A stretch of 64,000 nucleotides of DNA from Phycisphaeraceae bacterium (GTDB taxonomy: Bacteria > Planctomycetota > Phycisphaerae > Phycisphaerales > Phycisphaeraceae): positions 1 through 64,000 of the forward strand of contig PAIY01000186.1 in the NCBI GenBank assembly GCA_002704825.1. Direction: 5' to 3'. The notes under the pieces are model-generated. The model did not search any database and was not told the origin of the DNA. It worked only from the letters and a program-made list of their open reading frames with translations. Positions 12,137 through 27,612 of this stretch are shown here, piece after piece. The first letter of the stretch is position 1. Each line of letters starts with the position of its first letter. A program made the position numbers and the translations under genes.

Positions 12137-12928
12137 TTACAGACCGACGATGCTAAAACCAGCATCGACGTGAATATTTTCGCCGGTCACACCGGTCGAC
12201 AGGTCGCTGACCAGGTAGACTGCCGTGCCACCGACTTCTTCGCCGGTGATATTGCGCTTCATGGCAGCCTTGCGTTCCTGGTGTTCAAACATATCGGAGA
12301 TGCCACCGACTGCCGATGCTGCAAGCGTCCGCAGCGGACCACCGGAGATGGTGTTGACGCGAATCTTGTTTTCGCCTTCCCCCAGATCAAAGGCCAGATA
12401 CTTGGCGGTGTGCTCCAAAGCGGCCTTGGCGACCCCCATGATGTTGTAACCGGGGACAACCTTCTCACCACCGTAGTAACTCATCGCCAGGATGCTGCCA
12501 CCGTCGGGCATGATGTCCTTGGCACGCTGACCCATGGCAAGCAGTGAGTAAGCGCTGATGTCCATCGCCTGAGCCCAGGCTTGGCGGGTGGTCTTGTGGA
12601 AGTTGCCGAGCTTGAGGAATTCACGGTCGGCAAAGGCGACGGCATGGATCACGAAATCGATCTTGCCAAAGTCTGCCTTGAGCTTATCGAAAACGGCATC
12701 GAGATCTTCATCCTTGGACACATCGCAGGGCATCAACCACGGATCTGAAACGCCCAGCTCTTCGACGGCACTGCGACAGCGACGCTCCATCTTGCCCTTG
12801 GGATCGGGCAAATGCGTAAAGGCACATTCGGCTCCGTGAGCGATTAATTCCTTGGTAATGAACCATGCATAGCTGCGGTCATTGGCGATACCGAACACAA
12901 TGCCACGTTTGCCGTCAAGTAAACCCAT
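12137..12928 (-). CDS. fabI: Enoyl-[acyl-carrier-protein] reductase FabI
   Basis: 263 residues, normal FabI length. It catalyses the last reducing step of each fatty-acid elongation round using NAD(P)H. The Rossmann start GIVFGIANDRSYAWFITKEL and the core AMSYYGGEKVVPGYNIMGVAKAALE are typical. The catalytic pair reads Tyr161-x6-Lys168. The end NIHVDAGFSIVG is also characteristic. GGAGA lies eight bases before the ATG. It is a single gene with its own terminator. The long polar segment around residues 40-60 (PDPKGKMERRCRSAV) is slightly unusual but keeps the fold. Confidence 0.93.
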   Translation of the reverse strand: MGLLDGKRGIVFGIANDRSYAWFITKELIAHGAECAFTHLPDPKGKMERRCRSAVEELGVSDPWLMPCDVSKDEDLDAVFDKLKADFGKIDFVIHAVAFADREFLKLGNFHKTTRQAWAQAMDISAYSLLAMGQRAKDIMPDGGSILAMSYYGGEKVVPGYNIMGVAKAALEHTAKYLAFDLGEGENKIRVNTISGGPLRTLAASAVGGISDMFEHQERKAAMKRNITGEEVGGTAVYLVSDLSTGVTGENIHVDAGFSIVGL

Positions 12929-13048: not shown

Positions 13049-13954
13049 TCAAACATAGCCCAACTCGTGGAGCATCGCCCCCCCCAGTTCCATGAACACC
13101 GCTTCGGACTTCTCGTCGAAATGGTTCTTCCAATCACCGGTGACACCTTTACGGAAGAAGCTGCCCCGGTCTTCCTCACCGCCCTGCCGTCCCTTGGCCA
13201 GATTCTTGAATGACGCAGCTTCCAGACAATGCTGCACGGACGATTGATTGGCATCGACTCCCAAAAACTGGAACAGTCGCGTGGTCACTTCCGGGGCATC
13301 GGCATGGAGGTCTTCATACTTGAGTTCAAAGTAGCGATCAGGAAACTGCTTGCCAAACGCACGGGCCTGATTGATGTAGGGAAGCCAGTGATGCTGAATC
13401 AGATAACGGATGTATGTGGGCATGTCCGGGAAATTCTGCTTGAACTTGTCACCGGAAAATCGAATGTTGTGAAACCACCCGGAGACCGCTACATCACGAC
13501 CGTCACGGATGATCTGCACCACTTTGCAGTTCGGGAAATACTTGTTGAGCACCGGCAAGGTCATCGCATGTTCCGGCGTCTTCTCACCAATGAGTTTCAC
13601 ATCCGGCTTGTCTTTGATCCATGGGCTGACCAGGGCACCGATGGCTGTGAGATACAGGTAATCCAGCTGCACCTGATTGAACATCAACGCATTGTGATCA
13701 CCCAGTTGAGCGTTGCGATATTTGATCTGTTCATTGAATGCGCCAAGCGCCTGATTGAATGCAGGTGCAAGGACATTACCGAACACGGCCTCGCCACGAC
13801 AGATCATCTCCGGGTGGTAATCGAGAATTTTCTCAAGCCACGTCGTGCCGGACTTTTGGCAACCAACGACAAAAAAGAACTGTTTTTCCAGTACTTTTTT
13901 GATCTGGTCATGCAGTTGATCGTAAACGTGAATCAGGGATGTGCTTTGGGACAT
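13049..13954 (-). CDS. PAPS-dependent sulfotransferase
   Basis: About 301 residues. It carries the sulfotransferase signatures: a 5'-phosphosulfate loop QKSGTTWLEKIL near the N-terminus, the 3'-phosphate motif IIRDGRDVAVSGW, and the C-terminal RKGVTGDWKNHF loop. These enzymes move sulfate from PAPS to a sugar, lipid or protein hydroxyl. I prefer the ATG at 13954 (MSQSTSL). A TTG nine codons earlier overlaps the asparagine synthase stop and would also be possible. The gene directly follows the asparagine synthase on the same strand, so the two form an operon and probably modify one product. The acceptor is unknown. Confidence 0.88.
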   Translation of the reverse strand: MSQSTSLIHVYDQLHDQIKKVLEKQFFFVVGCQKSGTTWLEKILDYHPEMICRGEAVFGNVLAPAFNQALGAFNEQIKYRNAQLGDHNALMFNQVQLDYLYLTAIGALVSPWIKDKPDVKLIGEKTPEHAMTLPVLNKYFPNCKVVQIIRDGRDVAVSGWFHNIRFSGDKFKQNFPDMPTYIRYLIQHHWLPYINQARAFGKQFPDRYFELKYEDLHADAPEVTTRLFQFLGVDANQSSVQHCLEAASFKNLAKGRQGGEEDRGSFFRKGVTGDWKNHFDEKSEAVFMELGGAMLHELGYV

Positions 13955-13977
13955 CAAGTTAATCTTTCTTTTCCAAT

Positions 13978-16332
13978 TCAATGCAATTCACAGCGGACCA
14001 CCAGCGCGGCTTTGACTTCCGAGAGATTGATCACCTGGTGACCTGCAATGGTACCCAAGGTTGCAATCTGCTGAAGCAAGGCCTGAACCTGCGCCTGTTC
14101 ATTGGCTGCAAATGGGATTAAGCAAACCAACCGTTTGCCGGCATAATGTTTAGCCAACAGTTGGTTGGCAAGCTTATCCAACCCGACCATGATTGTCCCG
14201 GCAACCTGAAGTCCACTGACTTCTTCGGGTTGTTTTGCATCCACCGGTTGCGTATTGGTCAAGGATACAACCTGCGATTCAGGCCAATCATCCGGGGCCA
14301 GCATGCGGGTGATCGCCTTGCCGGACGCCTGAAAAGCCCTTGAAAACCAGCCATTTTCGTCACCAACAAGTAACACGTGATCATCAGGTTCAAAGTGATT
14401 GAACATGTGATTCACCAGTCGGGTTTCGTTGAGTGTCTCCTGCTGAATCATCAACGTCCCACGATGCCAAAGGTGATCCTGTTCGTTAGCAGGGATCTGA
14501 AAACCCGCTGCTTCCAGGGGTAGGTCCGGCTGGATGTAGTCTGCGTATTTCTCACACCACCTGGTAAACATCAAACTGTAAAACACGGGCATGGTGTGTT
14601 GCTGGGTGAACTGCCCTGCCTGCAAAAACGCCTGCCATTGTGGATCGAAAAGTTGTTTGGTCCAATTGCGTGTCTGCGTAAACATCTGCCCGAGCTTGGG
14701 AGCAGCCTGCACGATCCATTGTCCCAGTGGTGGCGTAAACCCACGCTTGGGTCGGTCGATCGCTTCGATCGGGCCATAGCGTTTGGCCAACTCAAAGAGA
14801 ATCCATTTGTACTGTTTGCCCTGAACTTTCATGGATGTTGGCAGGGATAACATGAAATTCACCACCCGCCAATCGAGCATCGGATTGCGTGCTTCAAGCG
14901 ATGCTGCCATGGTCATGCGTTCTTCAACACAGACAAGATAGTCGGGCAAATTGGTTTTGACATCAGCGTAAAGTGCCTGATTTAAGGTATCAAAATGCTT
15001 ATGCCGCATCCAGAATGCACCGACATGCGTGCTGCCGGTGACTGATTTGAGCAGCATCTGCCGCATGTCATTGGCATACATGCCTTGACGTGCGCCGGGC
15101 CAGGGCAACAGGTTGGTTCTTAGCAGATACGAAGCAAGGTGGTCCATGGAAGACGGTTTGATTTTGTCATTCGTACTTGCCACCGCCCAGTTGTATCGTC
15201 CTTCGTAACCCGCTGCCAATTCGTCACCGCCCTGCCCGGAGAGTACGACGGTGAGTTGTTCTCGACATAACTGAGCCAACCGACGCATGGGGAACATCGC
15301 GAAGTTGGCGAAGGGTTCGTCAAAGTACGTCGACACATCATCGACCAGTTCCAGGAAGTCCCCCAGCGAGACCACTTTTTCGTTGTACTCGCAATGGTGA
15401 TGTGCGGCGGTCATTTTTGCATAAGGCAACTCGTTGAAGCGCGGGTCATCACTGTCAAAGCCGATGCTGAATGTCTTGAGCGGGACATTGCCCATGGCCT
15501 TGGCGGCCATCGCGGTCATGAGCGTGGAATCAATCCCACCTGAAAGTAGACACCCAAACGGCACGTCCGCAATGAGTCGTTTATGCACCGCATCACTGAG
15601 TAATTCATCAAGTTGATCAATCGCCTGTGTCGGATCATTGGGAACCTCCACCGGCGAGTAATCCCAGTAACTGCTAACCGTATGCTCCCAACTGACAGCG
15701 TCGAGTTTGAGACTGCAGCCTGCGGGGAGTTTGTGAATGTTCTTGAAGATGGTTCGTGGCGAGAGAATGTAACCGCGTGCAAAATACTGGTCGATGGCAA
15801 TGGGATCGAGGAGGAATTTACGCTCCAAAAACCGGAGGATCGCCTTGAGTTCGCTGGCAAAAACGCAGCATTGCTCGTCCTTGAACCAATACAAGGGCTT
15901 TTGACCCAAACGATCCCGAGCCATGATCAATGTTCGCGCCTTGGTATCCCAGTGGGCAAAGGCAAACATGCCATTGAAATGTTCAAGGGCATCAAGTCCA
16001 TCGACATTCAGCAGCTTGAAAAGCACTTCGGTATCGCAGGCAGTTTCGATGGGTAGACCACGTTTTTTGCAGGTCTTTTGGAGCGCTTGAAAATTGTAGA
16101 TTTCGCCGTTGTAGACCAGTGTAAATCGGTCATCGACCATGGGTTGCTGACCGTGTTTCAGGTCCAGCACACTCAGTCGGCGATGCGCCAGACCAACGCC
16201 GCCCGACGCATCAAGCCATACCCCCGATTCGTCCGGGCCGCGATGGGCAAGGGTCTCCCGAGCTGCAATCAGACGCGACCGATCCACAGCCTGGTCGGGG
16301 TTTTTGAAGATGACGCCGACAAATCCACACAT
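13978..16332 (-). CDS. asnB: Asparagine synthase (glutamine-hydrolysing) with extra C-terminal domain
   Basis: 784 residues, against about 600-640 for usual AsnB. Cys2 (MCGFVGVI) is the glutaminase nucleophile; NGEIYNF and RGPDESG are the other Ntn markers. The synthetase part carries the ATP-pyrophosphatase loop SGGIDST (264-270) and SGQGGDEL. After about residue 620 comes an extra section with DHVLLVGDENGWFSRAFQ, which looks like a decayed Rossmann/methyltransferase-like fold; this is inference. AsnB homologues in surface-glycan clusters often amidate sugars or peptides rather than aspartate. The sulfotransferase next to it supports such a role. No strong ribosome binding site is visible at the ATG. 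Confidence 0.85.
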   Translation of the reverse strand: MCGFVGVIFKNPDQAVDRSRLIAARETLAHRGPDESGVWLDASGGVGLAHRRLSVLDLKHGQQPMVDDRFTLVYNGEIYNFQALQKTCKKRGLPIETACDTEVLFKLLNVDGLDALEHFNGMFAFAHWDTKARTLIMARDRLGQKPLYWFKDEQCCVFASELKAILRFLERKFLLDPIAIDQYFARGYILSPRTIFKNIHKLPAGCSLKLDAVSWEHTVSSYWDYSPVEVPNDPTQAIDQLDELLSDAVHKRLIADVPFGCLLSGGIDSTLMTAMAAKAMGNVPLKTFSIGFDSDDPRFNELPYAKMTAAHHHCEYNEKVVSLGDFLELVDDVSTYFDEPFANFAMFPMRRLAQLCREQLTVVLSGQGGDELAAGYEGRYNWAVASTNDKIKPSSMDHLASYLLRTNLLPWPGARQGMYANDMRQMLLKSVTGSTHVGAFWMRHKHFDTLNQALYADVKTNLPDYLVCVEERMTMAASLEARNPMLDWRVVNFMLSLPTSMKVQGKQYKWILFELAKRYGPIEAIDRPKRGFTPPLGQWIVQAAPKLGQMFTQTRNWTKQLFDPQWQAFLQAGQFTQQHTMPVFYSLMFTRWCEKYADYIQPDLPLEAAGFQIPANEQDHLWHRGTLMIQQETLNETRLVNHMFNHFEPDDHVLLVGDENGWFSRAFQASGKAITRMLAPDDWPESQVVSLTNTQPVDAKQPEEVSGLQVAGTIMVGLDKLANQLLAKHYAGKRLVCLIPFAANEQAQVQALLQQIATLGTIAGHQVINLSEVKAALVVRCELH

Positions 16333-16711: not shown

Positions 16712-18211
16712 TTAGCCAAGCAGTGAGAGCACGGAGTTCGGCTGCTGATTGGCAATACCAAGGACGTTGGTCGATGCGTTAACGAGGATCTGGCTACGTG
16801 TGAGTTCGGCGGTTTCGGCAGCAAAGTCCGTATCGCGGATGCTGCTTTCGGCGGCCGAGGTATTTTCAAGTGCGACGCCCAAGTTACGTGAGGTGGCACC
16901 AATCACATTGGATTGGAAGGCACCAATACGCCCACGCAGGTTCGAGACGGAACTGATGGCAATATTGACAATCTTCTGGGCAACTTCAAGGTCACCGTCA
17001 ACGAGATTGGCTGCGTTACCTGAGCCAAGGTCATTGAGGAAACCGATGTCACTATCGCCAAGTTTACGGGCAGCCACGTTCTGGATGCCTATTGAAGCCT
17101 GGTTGGTGATATTGACTTGCGGGCCGAGGTTGAACTTGGCACCCCCACCGGTGATGGTAAAGGCAGTAATGGTCTGCAATGCGTTGGAACCGCTGGCCTC
17201 ATCCAATTCGATTTCCATATCCAGGAAGTCGGTGGCGATACGTGCGGTACGCCCATCGCTGGTGGCTGCAATACCGTTGATGATGGCACCCACGTCCTGA
17301 CCTTCGTCACGGATGGGGTTGTTGATGGCACCGAATGCGGTAGCTGAACCGGCAACGGCCGTGTTTTCATCACCAGCCGACAGCAGGTAGACACCACCGG
17401 CTTGACCTGCGACGTTCACCACGTCGAAGGATACGAACTCATTTGAACCGTACTCGATGCTCTTGAGCACAAGACCGGTACCTGAGGTCGCAGCCGAAAC
17501 GCCAGTGGTCTGCTTGAAGGTATTGATGGCTTCAGCGATCGAAGCGCGACTTGTACCTGATGCGAAGGAGAATTCACGGCTACCCTTGGAACCGGCGATT
17601 TCAAAGGTGAAGGTATCCGTGGTATTGGTCAGATCCAACTGGTCGGCAGTGGACAGGAACAGACCGGCGTGCTGTGCAGAAGCAGTGACAACCACTTCCA
17701 CGGTGCGTGTTTCGTTGTGTGAAAGCTTGGCAGCATTGATCTTGAAGCTGTTGACTTCAGGTGCCTGTGCCGAGATGGTGAAGTCAAACGTACCGTTAAG
17801 CAGTTTGACGCCTTCAAAGCTGGTGGCTTCGGCGATACGATCGATGGTTTGAAGGATGGAGTCCACCTGAAGCTGATTGGCTTCTTTTTCCTCGACGGAC
17901 AGACCAGCATCGTTTGCTGATTCACCGACAAGGCTCTGGACTTCCAGAAGCAGTGCGTTGATTTCCTGAAGACCGCCTTCAGCGATGTTCATCACCTGGT
18001 CAGCACGTTCGGTGTTGGTGATGGCTGCTGAGATGGCTGCCTTTTCAGAACGCAGGTTTTCACTGGCGATCAAGCCTGCTGGGTCATCCTTACCACGGTT
18101 GATGGCAAGGCCGGTGCTCAGACGCTCGAGACTGGTGTTCAGCGAGTTGTTCTGCTGAGTCAGAATCCGTTGCGAGATGAGCGAGTTGACGTTGGTGTTG
18201 ATGCGACTCAT
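16712..18211 (-). CDS. Flagellin 1
   Basis: 499 residues. The start is the ATG at 18211 (MSRINTNVNSLISQ), with GGAGG about nine bases upstream. The conserved D0/D1 N-terminus (SLERLSTGLAINRGKDDPAGLIASENL) and C-terminus (AAESSIRDTDFAAETAELTRSQIL, ending in LLG) polymerise into the flagellar filament. A variable middle of about 200 residues with repeated short strands (SAQHAGLFLSTADQLDLTN) forms the exposed domains. It is a close paralogue of the flagellin at 18765-20255, in tandem on the same strand. A sigma-28-like promoter lies about 300 bases upstream and two terminators follow. No flagellar assembly genes lie in the window. Confidence 0.93.
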   Translation of the reverse strand: MSRINTNVNSLISQRILTQQNNSLNTSLERLSTGLAINRGKDDPAGLIASENLRSEKAAISAAITNTERADQVMNIAEGGLQEINALLLEVQSLVGESANDAGLSVEEKEANQLQVDSILQTIDRIAEATSFEGVKLLNGTFDFTISAQAPEVNSFKINAAKLSHNETRTVEVVVTASAQHAGLFLSTADQLDLTNTTDTFTFEIAGSKGSREFSFASGTSRASIAEAINTFKQTTGVSAATSGTGLVLKSIEYGSNEFVSFDVVNVAGQAGGVYLLSAGDENTAVAGSATAFGAINNPIRDEGQDVGAIINGIAATSDGRTARIATDFLDMEIELDEASGSNALQTITAFTITGGGAKFNLGPQVNITNQASIGIQNVAARKLGDSDIGFLNDLGSGNAANLVDGDLEVAQKIVNIAISSVSNLRGRIGAFQSNVIGATSRNLGVALENTSAAESSIRDTDFAAETAELTRSQILVNASTNVLGIANQQPNSVLSLLG

Positions 18212-18513
18212 GGTGTCGGTCCTCCGTGATCTTTTTGAGCACATTGCTCGTTGTTATGTCCGGCATCCATGCCTTGAACGTTTGTCCCGAATCACTCCGA
18301 TCCGTACTGATGCGTGTACACAGAACTCTCAAAACAAGCGGCCGGCCGTGACCTGCTGGTGTGACTGACTGCGTGAGCTTTGGTTTCGTTCTTGTCTAGC
18401 TCAGTGACAGGGTCAGGGACCAGTTTGTTTTTTCGAATCCTGAGAACTCTCGTTCCGCTACTGTTTTTCGGGAAGTCACGGGCAAAACAAACAGCGTCCG
18501 TTTCGAAAGTTTC

Positions 18514-18764: not shown

Positions 18765-20255
18765 TTAGCCGAGCAGACCCAGGACAGATTGCGGGCGAGC
18801 GTTGGACATGGCCACCACATTCGTTGCCGCGGAGACCAGAATCTGGTTGCGGGTCAGGGATGCGGTTTCTTCGGCGAAGTCGGTATCGCGGATGGCGGAT
18901 TCGGCTGCCGAGGTGTTTTCGTAGGCAATGTTCAACGAGTTGATGGTTGCACCAATCACGTTACTCTGAACCGAACCGAGGCGACCACGCATCTTGGAGA
19001 TGCTATCAATGGCATTGTCAACGATCTTCTGAGCGTCATCGAGGTTGTCACTGAGCAGTGAGTTGGTACCACCTGATGCCAGTGAGTCCAGATAACCATC
19101 GGCGGAGTTACCAATGTTTCGGGTTGCCACACTCTGCATACCAATGCGAATCTGGTTACCGACGTTGATATCCGGGCCGATGTTGAAGGTTGCACCACCA
19201 CCACTGACCGTCAGGGCAGCCACGGCACCGGTTGCGGTCGCCTGGCCGGTGGTCAGTGTCATTTCCATGTCCAGACCTTCTGAACTCACGGAAAGTGTAC
19301 GACCATTACCGCGGGCAGTCATACCGTTGACTGAAGCAGCAACGTCCTGACCTTCATCACGGATTGCAGCGTTGACAGCAGTGTAGGCGACGGCACTACC
19401 GGGGGTCGCTTCGGTTTCGTCCACCGTTGACAGTGTATAGACACCGCCTGCCTGACCGGCTGCATTGGTGACATTGAAGGACACAAATTCATCCGAACCA
19501 TATTCCATGCTCTTGATCACCACACCGGTGCCGGAAGTTGCGGCAGAAACGCCGGTCACATCCTTGAACTGGTTGATGGCGGTGACCATCTGAGCCTGCG
19601 TGGTACCGGAGGAGAAGGAAAATTCACGGGTCCCTTCCGTACCACCGATTTCAACGGTGAAGCTGTCAGTGGCATTGGTCAGGTCCAACTGGCCATTGGT
19701 CGAGAGGAACAGACCGGCATGCTGAGCTGAAGCCGTAACGACGGCCTGAACGGCAACGCTACCACCAGCTTCAAACTTGGCGGCATTGATCTGATAATCA
19801 TCGACCAGCACAGACTGGACCTGGAAGTCCTGACTGCCGTTAAGCAACTTCACGTCACCAAAGCTGGTGGTTGAAGAGATACGGTCGATGGTCTGAAGAA
19901 TCTGGTCAACCTGGAACTGGTTGGCTTCTTTTTCTTCCGTGGATAGACCGGTGTCGTTGGCGGTTTCACTGACAAGACCCTGCAATTCGGTGAGCAGGCT
20001 CTGTACTTCGTTTAAGCCACCTTCAGCAATGTTGATGACCTGGTCGGCACGCTCGGCGTTACCGATGGCTGCTGTGATCTTTTCCTGGTCTGAGCGAAGC
20101 TTTTCGCTGGCGATCAGACCTGCGGGGCCGTCGGAACCACGATTGATCTTCAGGCCGGTACTCAGACGTTCGAGAGATTGACTGAGGCTCTTGTTATTGG
20201 TTTGCAAAATACGTTGACCGATGAGTGAACTGACGTTGGTGTTGATTGTAGTCAT
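18765..20255 (-). CDS. Flagellin 2
   Basis: 496 residues. The frame is open further upstream, but the true start is the ATG at 20255 (MTTINTNVSSLIGQ), which has GGGAGAA eight bases upstream and matches the flagellin N-terminus. The conserved ends (LERLSTGLKINRGSDGPAGL; AAESAIRDTDFAEETASLTRNQIL; final LLG) and the middle domain closely follow flagellin 1, so the two arose by tandem duplication. Each has its own terminator, so they can be expressed separately. Two flagellins may form different parts of one filament or switch with conditions. Confidence 0.93.
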   Translation of the reverse strand: MTTINTNVSSLIGQRILQTNNKSLSQSLERLSTGLKINRGSDGPAGLIASEKLRSDQEKITAAIGNAERADQVINIAEGGLNEVQSLLTELQGLVSETANDTGLSTEEKEANQFQVDQILQTIDRISSTTSFGDVKLLNGSQDFQVQSVLVDDYQINAAKFEAGGSVAVQAVVTASAQHAGLFLSTNGQLDLTNATDSFTVEIGGTEGTREFSFSSGTTQAQMVTAINQFKDVTGVSAATSGTGVVIKSMEYGSDEFVSFNVTNAAGQAGGVYTLSTVDETEATPGSAVAYTAVNAAIRDEGQDVAASVNGMTARGNGRTLSVSSEGLDMEMTLTTGQATATGAVAALTVSGGGATFNIGPDINVGNQIRIGMQSVATRNIGNSADGYLDSLASGGTNSLLSDNLDDAQKIVDNAIDSISKMRGRLGSVQSNVIGATINSLNIAYENTSAAESAIRDTDFAEETASLTRNQILVSAATNVVAMSNARPQSVLGLLG

Positions 20256-20861
20256 TTGAGTTTTCTCCCAGGGCTGGTGGCGATGGCAACCATGACACGA
20301 TGAACCTTTCGAGTTACTTAATTGAGTCCAGTGTTGCCTTTTCTTCGAGTCTTGATCGCCAGGAGCCTCCTGTTGGTAAAGACGACCCTGTCTAAGTTTC
20401 ATCCAACAACGCCCGGGGCCTCCGCCCGTAACGCCTGAGTCAGAAGCCCGCAGGGTACTCAGCGCTTCTGACTGTCACATGTTGTTGTGCGGTTGCAAGC
20501 CGCTGGTTTAAACCGTTGACCACTCGGAAACATCCGGCTCCGGTGTGGCTGGAAATGAAAATCGACGATTTGCATCAATGAAATCAGGAACCATGAGAGA
20601 AACAATGCCAAATATCACTTAGGCGCATGTCATGTTCATCACAGTCGAAAAACACGCAAAATACCGCACAAAACGCACAAACTCACACACCGCATCCAGA
20701 AAGAACAAGACGCGCAACCGTCACAATCGCGCACGGCGTTACAACATGAAAAAAGATGCCGACCACGGGGCCGACATCTTTCGAATGACGCTATCTTTCA
20801 ATATGAATCTGTCCAGTCACACATTTCACAAGCAGATCAAGACCCGGAGATCAATACGCAC
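20256..20861. other. Intergenic region upstream of flagellin 2
   Basis: No convincing gene in about 600 bases. It holds the leader and presumed promoter of flagellin 2, for which I found no clear sigma-28 match, and the terminator of the large beta-helix gene at 20749-20781. Confidence 0.6.
20749..20781 (-). terminator. Terminator of the LEPRxLLS protein gene
   Basis: On the minus strand a 13-base stem with two G-T wobbles (outer arms AAAGATG and CATCTTT, 20752-20781) has a four-base loop and is followed by TTTTTT. It lies about 80 bases past the stop at 20862. Confidence 0.82.
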
Positions 20862-23800
20862 TTAAACGCTCGGCAAGGGATTATCGTTGTCAAAACCCAA
20901 ACCGGCATAACTTGCATCCTGTGCATCAAACGCATCATCAATCATGTCCCAGATCACCGACGTCCCCAGGAAATAACGCCCATCACCGTCAGAATCATCC
21001 AGATCATCTGCATCAACATAAAGTGGATTTGTTGTCGTGTTGGTCAAACCATCGCTGGCTTTACCAAAAAGTTTGACGTTGGCAGACGAATAGCTGATCC
21101 GAGCTGCATGACTGAAATATTTCCCCGCAGTCCAATCCTTGGCAGCCGTGTTGGTGTTGGAGAAAATCGTGTTGGAGATATATGCCTGGGTGAGACCGGA
21201 TGTACCGCCACTGTCGATTTCAATGCCGGTGGAGACATTGTGTATTGTGGAATTGGTCAGCGTGATCACCGCATTGGGATCAAGCCAGATGCCAGCCCCG
21301 CCCTGTGTGCCTGATGACCATTTATAAGTCCAGGCTGAGAGGATGTTGTCCATGACGATATCGACATTGCCCCAGATGCGGTAGTTGCGATAGTTGCCCA
21401 TCGCGACGGTGTTGACGAACTGAACATGATGTGCCTTGACATCGAAACCACCATCGGTGTTGTTGAAGGCTTTGGCTCCGTAGTAATAGATGTACTCGTT
21501 GCCGGCTTCGGCGGTATAACCATCGGCATTCCAATATCCGCTGCCGTTGTCATCATGAGCGCCCTGGCCAGTGGTGTTGACATAATAGATGTGACGATTG
21601 GGCGCATTACTTGAATCCACCTTGTACACCTCAAATCCGATGGCATAGCGTTCGCCGTCCCATGCCTGGCCACCGGCGTCAGCAAGGACATTGGTGATCA
21701 CCACATTTTCCATTCCATCGCGAAGTCGAACGCCCCGTTTTTCAAAACCGACAATCGAGCTGTCGGTGATGGTGACATTGCTCGAACCGTCACCATCACT
21801 GCCCTGAGCGCCACCGTCAATGACAAAGCCTTCACGGACTGCGGTCACGTGGACATTGCTGATATGGATATCCCAATCGACCAGCGTACTCACCGCTTTG
21901 CCGGAGTTGTTGAGGTAGATGCCGTTCTCGAAATGGGTGATGTTGATATTCTGAATCTTGATATGCCCAACACCATTATCCACCTGAATCCCGCGGCGAT
22001 AGGTCGAGCCCGATCCCTTGGTCCATGAGCCGTTGAGCGTCGGGAACACACCATTGCTGTCCGCCACGCCGACGAGTGATTTGTATCGCACTTCACCGTT
22101 GACGACATCACCGCCGGAGTCCAGATCGAAGGTGAGATTAAAGAAGTTACTTCCCTGAAGTGCCGTTGAGTTAATCAGGAACAAGGTCTGGCCGGGGCTC
22201 AGACTGTTCCATGCCGCTTCGAGTTCAGTCATATTTGCTATGCCCAACGGACTGTTGACCGACGAGCCGTCACCGGTACCCCCTGCCATGACATAGATGC
22301 CCGCGACCGCGCGTTGGAGCACGATCTGACTGTTGGCTGCGTCATGCACAATCGCAAAACCGTCTGGCAAATCAGACACATTGCCAAAGATGCTGGTACT
22401 GTCGGTGATGACGCTGCCGCCACCGGAGTAGTCCACGAGGACATAGCTGTCGTTGACCAGTGTTGCTGGATCAATGCTGCCGCTGCCGGTGTTGGATTCG
22501 AAGTTCAGGTTCATCTGTGAAATATCAAGCGTACCTTCGTTAACAATGAACTTGGATTGTTCGACACCCCCGCCGGACTTATGGCCAAGGTTAAAGTCGA
22601 AGGTGGAGAGATAAGCCAATGTGCCTGTTCCGGTCTTGTTGACCTGGAACGTTCGCCCACCGGTGGTGACCGCGCCTTCGAAAGTGATATCGCCATCGGC
22701 TTCAATGGTGTGGGTATAAATGGAGTCCTTATCGCCACTGGTATTGGCGTATGAGCCAAGGATCAGTTCACCGTTGCCGAGATTGCGTGCGGTGAAATTG
22801 CTGTGACCTTTGAGCAGTGAATTGATTTCCTGATCGTTGGACACACCGTCTTCCACGACGACAGAGAAGATATCAAAGCGCTGTCCATTGATGGTGTGCG
22901 AGAAAGCGCCGTCCATGAAATTGAGTTGGTTGATGACGACATTGCTTGAGAGCGTGATGGTGGTGTTCTGACTGAGATTGCCAAAGTATGCGGTGTCACC
23001 ACTGCCGGGGATGTCATCACCAACCCAGTTTTCAGCGGTTTGCCAACTGCCACTGGTATCACCGATCCATTGACCGGGAATGCCCTGAATTTCGCGGAGA
23101 AGAATCTGCTTGTTGGCGGTGTCATGATAAATCTCAAAACCGTCTGGCAGCCCTGCAACACTGCCGAAGATGTTGGTTGAATCAACAGTCACATCACCGC
23201 CGGTGTAATCGACGAGAACGTAGCTGCTTTGGGTAAGTGTTGCTGGATCAATCGCACCACTGCTGGTGTTGTTTTCCAGGTTCAGCGTCATCTGCGAGAT
23301 ATCCAGCGTGCCTGCATTGACGGTGAACTTGGATTGCTCCACGTTGCCGCCGGCGAGATGCCCGATGTTAAAGTCGAAGGTGGATTGATAGGTGAGTGTG
23401 CCATCGCCATTTTTGACGACCTGAAACGTTCGACCGCCAGTGGTGACCGCACTGCGGTAGGTCACGTCGCCTGCTGCATTGATCGTGTGCGTGTAGGTCG
23501 CGCTTTGATCTCCGCCGGTGTTGGAAAAGGACCCCAGCAATAGGTCAGCCGAGCCGTTGTTGGTGACGGAAAAGCTGCCGTTGTTCTTGAGCAGTGTGTT
23601 GACAGTTTGATCCTCAGTCACCCCACTGTCCACGACCACGGAGTTGATATCAAAGCGCTTACTCGAAAGCGTGTACGCCGATGCACCGGAGACGAAATTC
23701 AATTGGGAAATGGTGACATTGTTTGAAAGTGTGATGGCGGTGTTGGTTGCATTGCCATCGAACGTGGCAATATCACCGCTGGCAGGCAAGGTGTCATTCT

Positions 23801-23951
23801 CCCAGTTGGTTGCTGTACTCCATGCACCACTGACGCCCCCTTCCCACATCACCGCTGAGAGTAGTTGGCGGGGTTCGAGATTCTGGACGAAAACCGGGTG
23901 ATGACGACGACGTGATTTTTCCCGACGTGCAAGGCGAAATAGACGTTTCAT
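20862..23951 (-). CDS. LEPRxLLS-leader beta-helix protein, PL9 pectate-lyase-like
   Basis: 1029 residues. The start is the ATG at 23951 with GGAG upstream; the open frame above it begins with GTG and is not supported. The basic leader RLARREKSRRRHHPVFVQ runs into LEPRQLLS (25-32), the LEPR-xLL sorting motif of planctomycete surface proteins. Two copies follow of an autotransporter-type strand repeat (SGAWSTATNWENDTLPASGD and SGSWQTAENWVGDDIPGSGD). The second half is a right-handed parallel beta-helix. NADGYTAE and AFNNTDGGFDVKA (about 800-835) resemble the calcium-binding and catalytic region of PL9 pectate lyases, with one Asp replaced by Gly. The end is acidic (DADDLDDSDGDGR). A secreted anionic-polysaccharide lyase is likely but not proven. 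Confidence 0.75.
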   Translation of the reverse strand: MKRLFRLARREKSRRRHHPVFVQNLEPRQLLSAVMWEGGVSGAWSTATNWENDTLPASGDIATFDGNATNTAITLSNNVTISQLNFVSGASAYTLSSKRFDINSVVVDSGVTEDQTVNTLLKNNGSFSVTNNGSADLLLGSFSNTGGDQSATYTHTINAAGDVTYRSAVTTGGRTFQVVKNGDGTLTYQSTFDFNIGHLAGGNVEQSKFTVNAGTLDISQMTLNLENNTSSGAIDPATLTQSSYVLVDYTGGDVTVDSTNIFGSVAGLPDGFEIYHDTANKQILLREIQGIPGQWIGDTSGSWQTAENWVGDDIPGSGDTAYFGNLSQNTTITLSSNVVINQLNFMDGAFSHTINGQRFDIFSVVVEDGVSNDQEINSLLKGHSNFTARNLGNGELILGSYANTSGDKDSIYTHTIEADGDITFEGAVTTGGRTFQVNKTGTGTLAYLSTFDFNLGHKSGGGVEQSKFIVNEGTLDISQMNLNFESNTGSGSIDPATLVNDSYVLVDYSGGGSVITDSTSIFGNVSDLPDGFAIVHDAANSQIVLQRAVAGIYVMAGGTGDGSSVNSPLGIANMTELEAAWNSLSPGQTLFLINSTALQGSNFFNLTFDLDSGGDVVNGEVRYKSLVGVADSNGVFPTLNGSWTKGSGSTYRRGIQVDNGVGHIKIQNINITHFENGIYLNNSGKAVSTLVDWDIHISNVHVTAVREGFVIDGGAQGSDGDGSSNVTITDSSIVGFEKRGVRLRDGMENVVITNVLADAGGQAWDGERYAIGFEVYKVDSSNAPNRHIYYVNTTGQGAHDDNGSGYWNADGYTAEAGNEYIYYYGAKAFNNTDGGFDVKAHHVQFVNTVAMGNYRNYRIWGNVDIVMDNILSAWTYKWSSGTQGGAGIWLDPNAVITLTNSTIHNVSTGIEIDSGGTSGLTQAYISNTIFSNTNTAAKDWTAGKYFSHAARISYSSANVKLFGKASDGLTNTTTNPLYVDADDLDDSDGDGRYFLGTSVIWDMIDDAFDAQDASYAGLGFDNDNPLPSV

Positions 23952-24366
23952 GCGAACTCCAAAGTAAGATGTGGACAAAGTTGGCGCAGCGACAGCATGC
24001 ACCGGATTGGCTGAAAATTTCCGTGAACTCTGAATGTCAATTGCCCGGGGCACAGTGAAATGTTGTTTGATCCATCCATCGACCGTGCGAGATCGAATAC
24101 ATGCCACTGGATTTCGTCAGAATGACGCAACCGACACTGTGTTGGGAGGAAATTAATCAGCACAGATATAAACAGTCAACAGTTTTTTGACATTTTTTCA
24201 AACAAGTCTGCTGAGTTCCAATCAAGCCTTGATCACAAAGAATGCCGGACGTGGGAATTGAACTCCCAACTCCTTTAAACCTATACTCATAGGCCCAAGC
24301 TCCATAGTGGACTTGCCGTTAAACGACTCCCGCCTTCACTCGCACACTTTCCGAAAGAGATTTGAA
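23952..24366. other. Divergent intergenic region
   Basis: About 415 bases between the minus-strand beta-helix gene and the plus-strand esterase, so it should contain both promoters. A tRNA-like fragment sits at 24244-24334. Nothing else is recognisable. Confidence 0.55.
24244..24334 (-). other. tRNA-like sequence lacking a matched acceptor stem
   Basis: On the minus strand there is a good T-arm, TGGGA-GTTCAAT-TCCCA, and a D-loop-like CGTTTAACGGCAA. Between them lie two hairpins, one with stem CCTAT/ATAGG. However, the 3' segment CGTCCGG after the T-arm finds no complementary 5' acceptor strand, and the anticodon loop cannot be placed with seven bases. It could be a decayed tRNA or a coincidental structured sequence. 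It is not called as a functional tRNA. Confidence 0.25.
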
Positions 24367-25590: not shown

Positions 25591-26790
25591 CTACTCGTCG
25601 GACTGTTCGCGTTTTTCGATGTCCTGGATGTAGGCCATGGTGCGGTCAAGTTCACGCTTGAGGTGACGGACACGCAGCAGTGACTTCACACGGGTGAGCA
25701 GTTCGAGTTTGTTGACGGGCTTGGTGACAAAGTCATCGGTGCCGGACTCGACGCCGCGTTCGATGTCGCCCAGTTCGTTGAGTGCGGTGACCATCATGAT
25801 CGGAATCGCGCGGGTGTTGGGGTCTTCCTTGAGTTTGGTGCAGACTTCAAAACCACTCATGCGTGGCATCATCACGTCCAAGAGAATCAGGTCGGGCATG
25901 GGTTCGTCGTTGTTCTCGATCCACTGCATGGCTTCCAAACCATCGTAGGCCACGAACGTTTTGCAGCCGAGTTCTTCGAGATAAGCCTGCATCAGTTCCA
26001 CGTTCTGAGCATTGTCATCGACAATGAGAATGGTGGAAGTGGAAAGGTCCATCTGATCCGAAGCGTTTTCCTGGGCTGGTGATTGTGATGTTGTATTCAT
26101 ATCTAGTTGATCCTCACAGATCGCGTCAAGTTGTTCCCGCAACGCGATCAAGTCTGCATCATGCGTCTCCGTCAGGCGGTGTCGCAGTGAGGCAAGGTCT
26201 TCTGGGGTGTCGACATCGTACCAATGTGCCCCACTGGCCAGATCGATTCGGGCGTCACGTGCTGCCTGAATCGTCTGATGGTACACGTTTGCGCTGCCCC
26301 AGTCGATCCCCATTAGCAATTGTGGGAAGAATTGGCTGGCGGCCAGCGTCCAATAACCACCGTCGGCAACAGGGCCCACCACGGCGTCGGCACGGGTGAG
26401 AATCTGGATCATATTTTCCAGGTCCACACGCGGCACATCAGGGCTATCCACGCCAAAGAACATCACCGGCCCTTTGCCGATGCGTCCCCAGACGGTTTCA
26501 AGTCGTTGGCCGAGGTCGCCATCCCCCTGATCGAGCAATTCCCAGGGCTCATGGGGTAACGCACTGGGCCATGCAGCAGGACCGCCATCGACTGCCAAGC
26601 CGAAACGGACGGGATAATCCTGAATGGGGCTGAAAATTTTCACCAACCGCGTCATGACACAGGACATGAGAGCTTGATGGATCTTGGCCGCCTGCTGGTC
26701 GGTCATATCCCCGATGAGGCGCGTCTTGACCTTGCCGGCAATGGGAGGCCGGGTCATGACAACAATCCATAAAATCTTTTTTTCACCCAT
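25591..26790 (-). CDS. TIGR04282-type glycosyltransferase fused to response-regulator receiver
   Basis: 399 residues from the ATG at 26790 (MGEKKILW); a TTG four codons earlier is possible. Residues 1-200 are a DUF2064/TIGR04282 nucleotide-sugar-transferase-like domain (MTRPPIAGKVKTRL, FFGVDSPDVP, GPVADGGYWTLA, WYDVDTPEDL). Residues 250-370 are a CheY-like receiver (ILIVDDNAQN, phospho-Asp in LILLDVMMPRMSG, KPVNKLEL) with a coiled-coil tail. The joining segment contains MNTTSQ at 26100 with GAGGA about 12 bases upstream, so the receiver may also be made alone from an internal start. No stop codon separates the halves. I know of no established role for such a fusion. Confidence 0.75.
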   Translation of the reverse strand: MGEKKILWIVVMTRPPIAGKVKTRLIGDMTDQQAAKIHQALMSCVMTRLVKIFSPIQDYPVRFGLAVDGGPAAWPSALPHEPWELLDQGDGDLGQRLETVWGRIGKGPVMFFGVDSPDVPRVDLENMIQILTRADAVVGPVADGGYWTLAASQFFPQLLMGIDWGSANVYHQTIQAARDARIDLASGAHWYDVDTPEDLASLRHRLTETHDADLIALREQLDAICEDQLDMNTTSQSPAQENASDQMDLSTSTILIVDDNAQNVELMQAYLEELGCKTFVAYDGLEAMQWIENNDEPMPDLILLDVMMPRMSGFEVCTKLKEDPNTRAIPIMMVTALNELGDIERGVESGTDDFVTKPVNKLELLTRVKSLLRVRHLKRELDRTMAYIQDIEKREQSDE

Positions 26791-27138
26791 CTTAGCGTCC
26801 AAATTGCCCGTTGGCCGACTGGTCGATTACCGTACTGTCAACACGCCTATCGACCAAACGCGCCCAAGTTCTGCATGATTGGTGGGTGAGATGTGGCATC
26901 CCGATCAATCGTTATAGGCCGTGATCCTGAGCATGAACAACGATCAAGACATCACGGTGCGACTTGTCAGATCAAAATCCTAGCTTACAATGATCCTCTA
27001 CATTTTTCAGGCACCAGTGTGCTTTTATGCAACTGTGAATGCAACCTGGGATGATCGATACGCGTAAATACTACCAGAGCAGCAGGTCTGATGATCTGAT
27101 CGCTGCTTGGTTTTGGATACTAGGGACTGATTGACACG
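26791..27138. other. Divergent intergenic region
   Basis: About 350 bases between divergent genes. It should contain both promoters. No gene, repeat or clear promoter pair was recognised. Confidence 0.5.
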
Positions 27139-27612
27139 ATGACACAGAACCTCACACCCGCCCTGCCCTGGCAAAATCGCTGGACAACACCGACCCTCGA
27201 AAGCCTGCTTTCGCCACTGAACCCTCAGCACAGCGCGGTGTTCACCGATTTGATGAAGGATCTGGAACAGTACGAAGACGTCACCTACGAATTCCACTGG
27301 TACGGCCCGAGTTGGAACTGGACGCTCGAATACTACTTCATCAATCCCAAGGCCAAGGACAAAAAAGGTTCGACGCTTTGTTATCTTGTCCCCAATGTTA
27401 ACGGCCCGGTGGTCTGTGTGACCATGGATGACGGACAGATGGAAGCCATGCCGATGCGTCGTCTGAATCGCATGATCCGTGAAGCGCTCAAGAGTGCCAA
27501 GTCTGCGGTGCAACTGCACTGGTGCACCTGGACACCCACCACCAACGCCGAGATCGGTCACCTGGCAGACCTGATCAAACGCAAGTACAAGCTGGTCACC
27601 GGCGAGAAATAA
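27139..27612 (+). CDS. DUF3788-like small protein
   Basis: 157 residues, cytosolic, with no signal peptide. Features such as HWYGPSWNWTLEYYF, GSTLCYLVPN and a basic C-terminus (LIKRKYKLVTGEK) resemble the DUF3788 group of small uncharacterised proteins; this is from memory of the family pattern. The ATG has only a weak AGGGA about 12 bases upstream. It stands alone, followed by the inverted dispersed repeats. No function is assigned. Confidence 0.6.
   Translation: MTQNLTPALPWQNRWTTPTLESLLSPLNPQHSAVFTDLMKDLEQYEDVTYEFHWYGPSWNWTLEYYFINPKAKDKKGSTLCYLVPNVNGPVVCVTMDDGQMEAMPMRRLNRMIREALKSAKSAVQLHWCTWTPTTNAEIGHLADLIKRKYKLVTGEK

Follow-up and report, generated by a model that had tools for sequence, protein, structure and literature searches.

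A DUF2064 domain fused to a response-regulator receiver in a genus of Phycisphaeraceae, and its mostly unfused relatives

Introduction

Does a gene that joins a putative nucleotidyl- or glycosyltransferase-like domain to a response-regulator receiver encode an enzyme that is switched by phosphorylation, or is the fusion a local accident or a looser form of partnership? The question is raised by a gene found in the first 64,000 nucleotides of contig PAIY01000186.1 (assembly GCA_002704825.1) of a Phycisphaeraceae bacterium, a stretch of DNA that is referred to below as the window. Receivers attached to metabolic enzymes are known yet thinly studied. Response regulators with enzymatic outputs are already in print, and one paper (PMC5847659) describes MTH_548, in which a receiver is fused to a BcsA-like glycosyltransferase. 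MTH_548 and the window protein are alike in carrying a receiver and a sugar-related enzyme on one chain; they differ in that the enzyme here is DUF2064 rather than PF13641, the host is a member of the Planctomycetota rather than a methanogen, and most of the relatives carry an unfused adjacent pair. A receiver-enzyme fusion is a known kind of protein, and the particular combination of DUF2064 with a receiver was not found in print: among the titles returned by literature searches on DUF2064 and TIGR04282, there was no paper on DUF2064 in a receiver-linked role; DUF2064 gave no title, and the two for TIGR04282 were on unrelated subjects.

Results

A single frame encodes a DUF2064 domain and a receiver

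The gene occupies 25591-26790 of the minus strand, running from an ATG at 26790 to a TAG at 25593-25591 and coding for 399 amino acids within a single open frame spanning 25594-26802. The original prediction, which gave no strand, had described an uninterrupted frame joining a TIGR04282/DUF2064 domain to a receiver with all of its phosphorylation residues, and this was borne out by Pfam, NCBIfam and residue alignment; on the plus strand there are several stop codons across 25591-26790. The DUF2064 half (26101-26790, minus strand; residues 1-230) scored 75.2 bits against PF09837 (gathering cut-off 25.8) and passed the TIGR04282 cut-off of 134 bits by a small margin, with 145.4 and 147.6 bits in two NCBIfam searches. 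The receiver (25594-26058, minus strand; residues ~250-399) scored 98.3 bits against Response_reg PF00072 (gathering cut-off 30.2). Residues D258, D259, D305, T335 and K357 of the receiver, in the numbering of the 399-residue protein, are invariant in all of the 44 or 45 rows that have letters at those columns, and the DUF2064 signatures K22-T-R-L, D115-S-P-D-V-P, D143-G-G and D192-V-D194 are near invariant across the 45 loci that we aligned. At one unfused locus (L062 of genome G033), DUF2064 is without several of the signature residues and the adjoining receiver is intact.

Comparison with the TIGR04282/DUF2064 family, as represented by 3CGX from Desulfovibrio desulfuricans, showed that the window protein is alike in domain boundaries, signature residues and fold and that it differs in being fused to a receiver; it scores just above the TIGR04282 cut-off, whereas the receiver-linked relatives in G024, G017 and G033 fall below it. 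TIGR04282 is associated with an arsenosugar-type partner, TIGR04283, whose presence speaks to function and has no part in membership as judged by score. None of 16 matches to TIGR04283 in the window genome (88.9% complete) was over the cut-off, and an arsenosugar context through this partner was rejected.

A promoter scan gave one promoter-like site, on the plus strand and at chance level. A terminator scan gave four sites against 1.5 expected, two of which overlap on the plus strand between the fused gene and a convergent esterase gene.

The fused frame is kept throughout the genus

It can be seen that each of the four genus genomes has the fused frame without interruption, with 411, 411, 409 and 412 codons from stop to stop, and that one of these genomes is a complete chromosome (CP087563.1). 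A response regulator with an enzyme-type domain in a single frame is thus kept in four of four genomes, whose DUF2064 domains share 62-96% pairwise identity. Within the genus, dN/dS by Nei-Gojobori counts was 0.10-0.17 in the DUF2064 half and 0.01-0.05 in the receiver, which are rough figures as dS is saturated in the farther pairs. These low ratios indicate that both halves of the fusion are being kept under purifying selection.

A local frameshift or an assembly error is ruled out by the presence of the fused frame in four genomes, one of them complete. We consider it vanishingly unlikely that the window genome lost its stop codon to a sequencing or assembly error; such an error would agree with the two genes seen in relatives and with the single stop codon that sets the nearest relative apart (see below), but could hardly recur at the above levels of divergence. 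We conclude that the DUF2064-receiver fusion is real.

Most relatives carry DUF2064 and the receiver as adjacent genes

A DUF2064 match was found in 63 of the 400 genomes of the order. The relatives examined as sequence comprise 45 loci from 44 of these genomes, G123 contributing two; in a further four (G004, G014, G266 and G394) DUF2064 and the receiver are adjacent as judged by coordinates, in seven (G026, G041, G045, G049, G061, G289 and G317) they are on different contigs, and the other eight are outside the arrangement counts. At all 45 loci the receiver comes next after DUF2064 on the same strand. The two are fused at nine loci, namely those of G000-G003 (G000 being the window genome), G012, G024, G068, G040 and G125, which rules out a fusion limited to a single genome, and at the remaining 36 they are separate adjacent genes. 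In half of the separate pairs (18/36) the receiver ATG overlaps the TGA of DUF2064 in an ATGA pattern. A check of the fusion in related genomes, as the original prediction had proposed, thus gave a divided answer: separate genes in relatives, which it had taken as a pointer to a local frameshift, are indeed the common state, but the frameshift itself does not hold, since four genomes are fused and purifying selection acts on both halves.

In a tree built from both domains, G019 is sister to the genus (support 100/97). Its junction reads AAG GAA TAG TCT GAA ATG, with the TAG nine bases before the receiver ATG, and the corresponding sequences are AAG GAA TAT AAA TCT ATG in G002, AAG GAC AAT ATA GAC ATG in G003 and GAG GAT CAA CTA GAT ATG in G000 and G001. 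The codon aligned to the in-frame TAG of G019 is therefore CAA, AAT or TAT in the genus. G019 was counted as separate, its open-frame length of 407 being obtained by reading through the TAG. As a single TAG before the receiver ATG distinguishes G019, these junctions indicate that the fusion in the genus arose by loss of the stop that had ended DUF2064 nine bases ahead of the receiver start. Five changes between the fused and separate states are required on the tree, at least four of which are forced by well-supported branches. The direction of change would be fusion and not splitting, to judge from the majority state. Repeated separate mergers point to teamwork of DUF2064 and the receiver, without proving it.

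An internal ATG marks the junction

The original prediction also pointed to an internal ATG, accompanied by GAGGA, from which free receiver could be made. Both elements are present on the minus strand (26098-26115, the ATG at 26100-26098 and the Shine-Dalgarno-like GAGGA at 26115-26111), and the ATG is homologous to the position at which the free receiver starts in unfused relatives; the spacing of 10 nucleotides is on the long side. The junction ATG is kept in eight of the nine fused genes, the exception being G068, which has no internal ATG. Shine-Dalgarno energies, calculated against an assumed 16S tail, were scored at 43 of the 45 loci (G068 and G282 have no ATG start and were left out). 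The eight fused genes had a mean of -5.1 kcal/mol against -2.5 kcal/mol for a control set of 499 ATGs from elsewhere within DUF2064 frames (Mann-Whitney p 0.0026, with rows that are related to one another). From the internal ATG onwards, the sequence MNTTSQ is identical in the four genus genomes, and the flanking residues vary. An ATGA at the old start of fused genes was not taken as proof, because a second codon starting with A is common. A free receiver made from the ATG at 26100 is a plausible second product. G068 appears to make the receiver as a fusion only, so the free form would not always be kept.

A linker predicted to be disordered joins the two domains

Structure prediction with AF2 used an alignment of 65 of 81 possible rows (the window protein, the eight other fused proteins, 32 of 36 separate DUF2064 proteins and 24 of 36 separate receivers) and gave a mean pLDDT of 93.2 and a pTM of 0.65; DUF2064 alone without an alignment reached a mean pLDDT of only 37.5. 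The predicted DUF2064 half matched 3CGX over 217 residues (Z 25.3, 2.6 A, 26% identity), in a VIA-align match list that was filled by receivers and so hardly probed any DUF2064 relative besides 3CGX. On this fold match, which places it with CofC-like proteins of the GT-A fold, the DUF2064 half is a putative CofC-like nucleotidyl- or glycosyltransferase-like enzyme, 3CGX itself being named as putative. The receiver matched PleD over 139 residues (Z 22.3, 44% identity), and CheY-like receivers also matched. It shares with PleD, DivK and CheY-like receivers the fold and the phosphorylation residues, and with PleD the extension of the last helix, which here is a 38-residue helix (residues 361-398) that terminates the protein; it differs from them in having neither a GGDEF nor a DNA-binding output and in having its partner enzyme at the N-terminus.

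Between the two domains is a linker (26059-26097, minus strand; residues 232-244) with pLDDT below 50, which is predicted to be disordered and is the fastest-changing segment of the protein. The relative orientation of the domains in the model is uncertain, as the pTM indicates. Taken together, the disordered linker and the uncertain orientation favour a tether over rigid allosteric control as far as the model goes.

Within the order the receiver is far more widespread than DUF2064

Of the 400 order genomes, 366 have the receiver, including 257 of the 262 of high quality, and it is single-copy in nearly all of the genomes listed (E 1e-26 or better). Across the phylum, own order included, it was found in 43 of 246 genomes at E 1e-35 or better, and at the 20 loci that we looked at in other classes it is a free gene of ~150 codons. 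Among the titles returned by literature searches, no described function was found for this order-wide receiver; the present analysis brings to attention an orphan receiver that is present throughout an order and recognisable in other planctomycete classes. No DUF2064 was seen near 20 other receiver loci of the order, mostly in genomes without a DUF2064 match, even at an HMM E of 1. As the receiver mostly occurs without DUF2064, it is the conserved partner, for which the coupling to DUF2064 is optional.

TIGR04282 was found in 127 of 246 planctomycete genomes (E 1e-10 or better). In the single-contig genomes G466, G445, G574, G546 and G422 from elsewhere in the phylum it is far apart from the receiver, and linkage of the two therefore looks like a feature of the order. 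The window genome has one DUF2064 match and one receiver match at E 1e-26 or better, so that neither protein has a detected source other than the fused gene, although at 88.9% completeness there may be an unseen copy.

In the window and in part of its family, flagellin genes follow downstream

Two tandem flagellin genes are found downstream of the fusion on the same strand (18765-20402 and 16712-18244), followed by genes for an asparagine-synthetase-like protein (13978-16332), a sulfotransferase (13049-13981) and an SDR reductase (12137-12928), which may have a part in decorating the cell surface or the flagellins, and then by a hybrid kinase gene. Between the flagellins and the fusion there is a 1081-residue frame (20862-24107, minus strand) that contains an internal repeat and matches nothing in Pfam above the cut-off. 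Upstream of the fusion is a divergent DUF3788 gene (27139-27612), and DUF3788-like proteins, as judged by eye, adjoin the receiver in G030, G018, G010, G183 and G091.

This neighbourhood suggests that the pair might serve flagellin modification or motility, with DUF2064 making or transferring a flagellin sugar at times set by the receiver. Besides the two flagellins and the sulfotransferase and asparagine-synthetase-like genes of the window, such a role would agree with a same-strand flagellin gene starting less than 900 nucleotides downstream of the receiver at 14 of the 30 loci of family f1 that carry the pair, and with one within ~2 kb at five of nine f1 loci without DUF2064. Against it, no flagellin was found near the pair at 13 loci of family f3 and two of f5 (in a comparison where several loci had little downstream sequence), and the gaps of ~350-860 nucleotides suggest separate transcripts. 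Moreover, flagellin is present in 125 of 151 genomes of the order, and in all 20 listed of the 26 genomes without it the receiver is kept, which rules out a flagellar function as the sole role of the receiver. We regard a flagellin role for the pair as doubtful; motility is a lead for the window's family, but it cannot be the only role of the receiver.

Discussion

Our preferred explanation, to which we would assign a probability of roughly 0.6, is that the fused gene derives from an older arrangement in the order, a unit of two genes in which DUF2064 is directly followed by a highly conserved single-domain receiver, that the stop codon between them was lost in the ancestor of the genus, and that DUF2064 is a client enzyme leashed to the phosphorylated receiver. 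A soluble histidine kinase would phosphorylate D305, and the receiver would then alter its partner surface, perhaps as a dimer of the kind that PleD receivers form. DUF2064 would be held beside the receiver by the flexible leash, and signalling would shift its place or local concentration rather than twist its active site. The old start at 26100 would still make some free receiver, which would carry out the order-wide job of the receiver independently of DUF2064.

A serious rival, although on balance an unlikely one, is that coupled genes were merged harmlessly when a stop codon was lost and read-through became neutral, phosphorylation being irrelevant to DUF2064 and the receiver doing its separate job either as a free product of the old start or with DUF2064 as a tolerated passenger. 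A receiver that mostly occurs without DUF2064, an old start kept in eight of nine fused genes and a linker predicted to be disordered are all compatible with such an accident, and in the genus one stop loss would have been enough. It accounts less well for the five changes of state on the tree, for G068, which appears to have dispensed with the free form, and for a pair that stays together in families f1, f3 and f5 while most of the recurring genes on its flanks are family-specific (the latter from family tallies of the smaller clusters, in a clustering that includes antisense frames of the pair itself). The original prediction had favoured direct allosteric control, in which a phosphorylated receiver would switch the active site of DUF2064 on the same chain. 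Such control would make sense of one polypeptide that has the receiver residues in full as well as intact DUF2064 signatures, and there are precedents in other receivers attached to metabolic enzymes, but no fixed interface is predicted across the linker, and the unfused pairs at 36 of 45 loci show that the covalent link is not needed. We consider it improbable.

A more elaborate history can also be drawn, in which the receiver took the same enzyme as partner throughout: the two would have begun as an overlapping pair and been merged into one polypeptide on four to five occasions, the old start being retained so that tethered and free receiver are both made, and in f1 sugar transfer would be coupled to the neighbouring flagellins. 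Taken as a whole it is only a tentative proposal and unlikely to hold in every part. The relatives, whose two parts may be apart, touching or fused, make up a natural series for asking what a covalent link adds, and G019, set apart by one stop codon, offers a comparison with the genus at close range.

As for the kinase that the preferred explanation calls for, two further families of the class have a soluble histidine kinase gene next to, and divergent from, the receiver gene. Matches to this kinase were found in 24 of the 41 genomes searched (E 1e-32 or better), and its relative in the window genome (G000:C129, 42% identity; locus L119, 1411-3252) is followed by a gene for a CheX phosphatase. 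On gene position and similarity, G000:C129 is a candidate kinase for the receiver and should be taken as a lead only. In G551 and G454 (L111 and L112), a small conserved protein of 97-127 amino acids is encoded just ahead of the receiver gene, between it and the divergent kinase gene.
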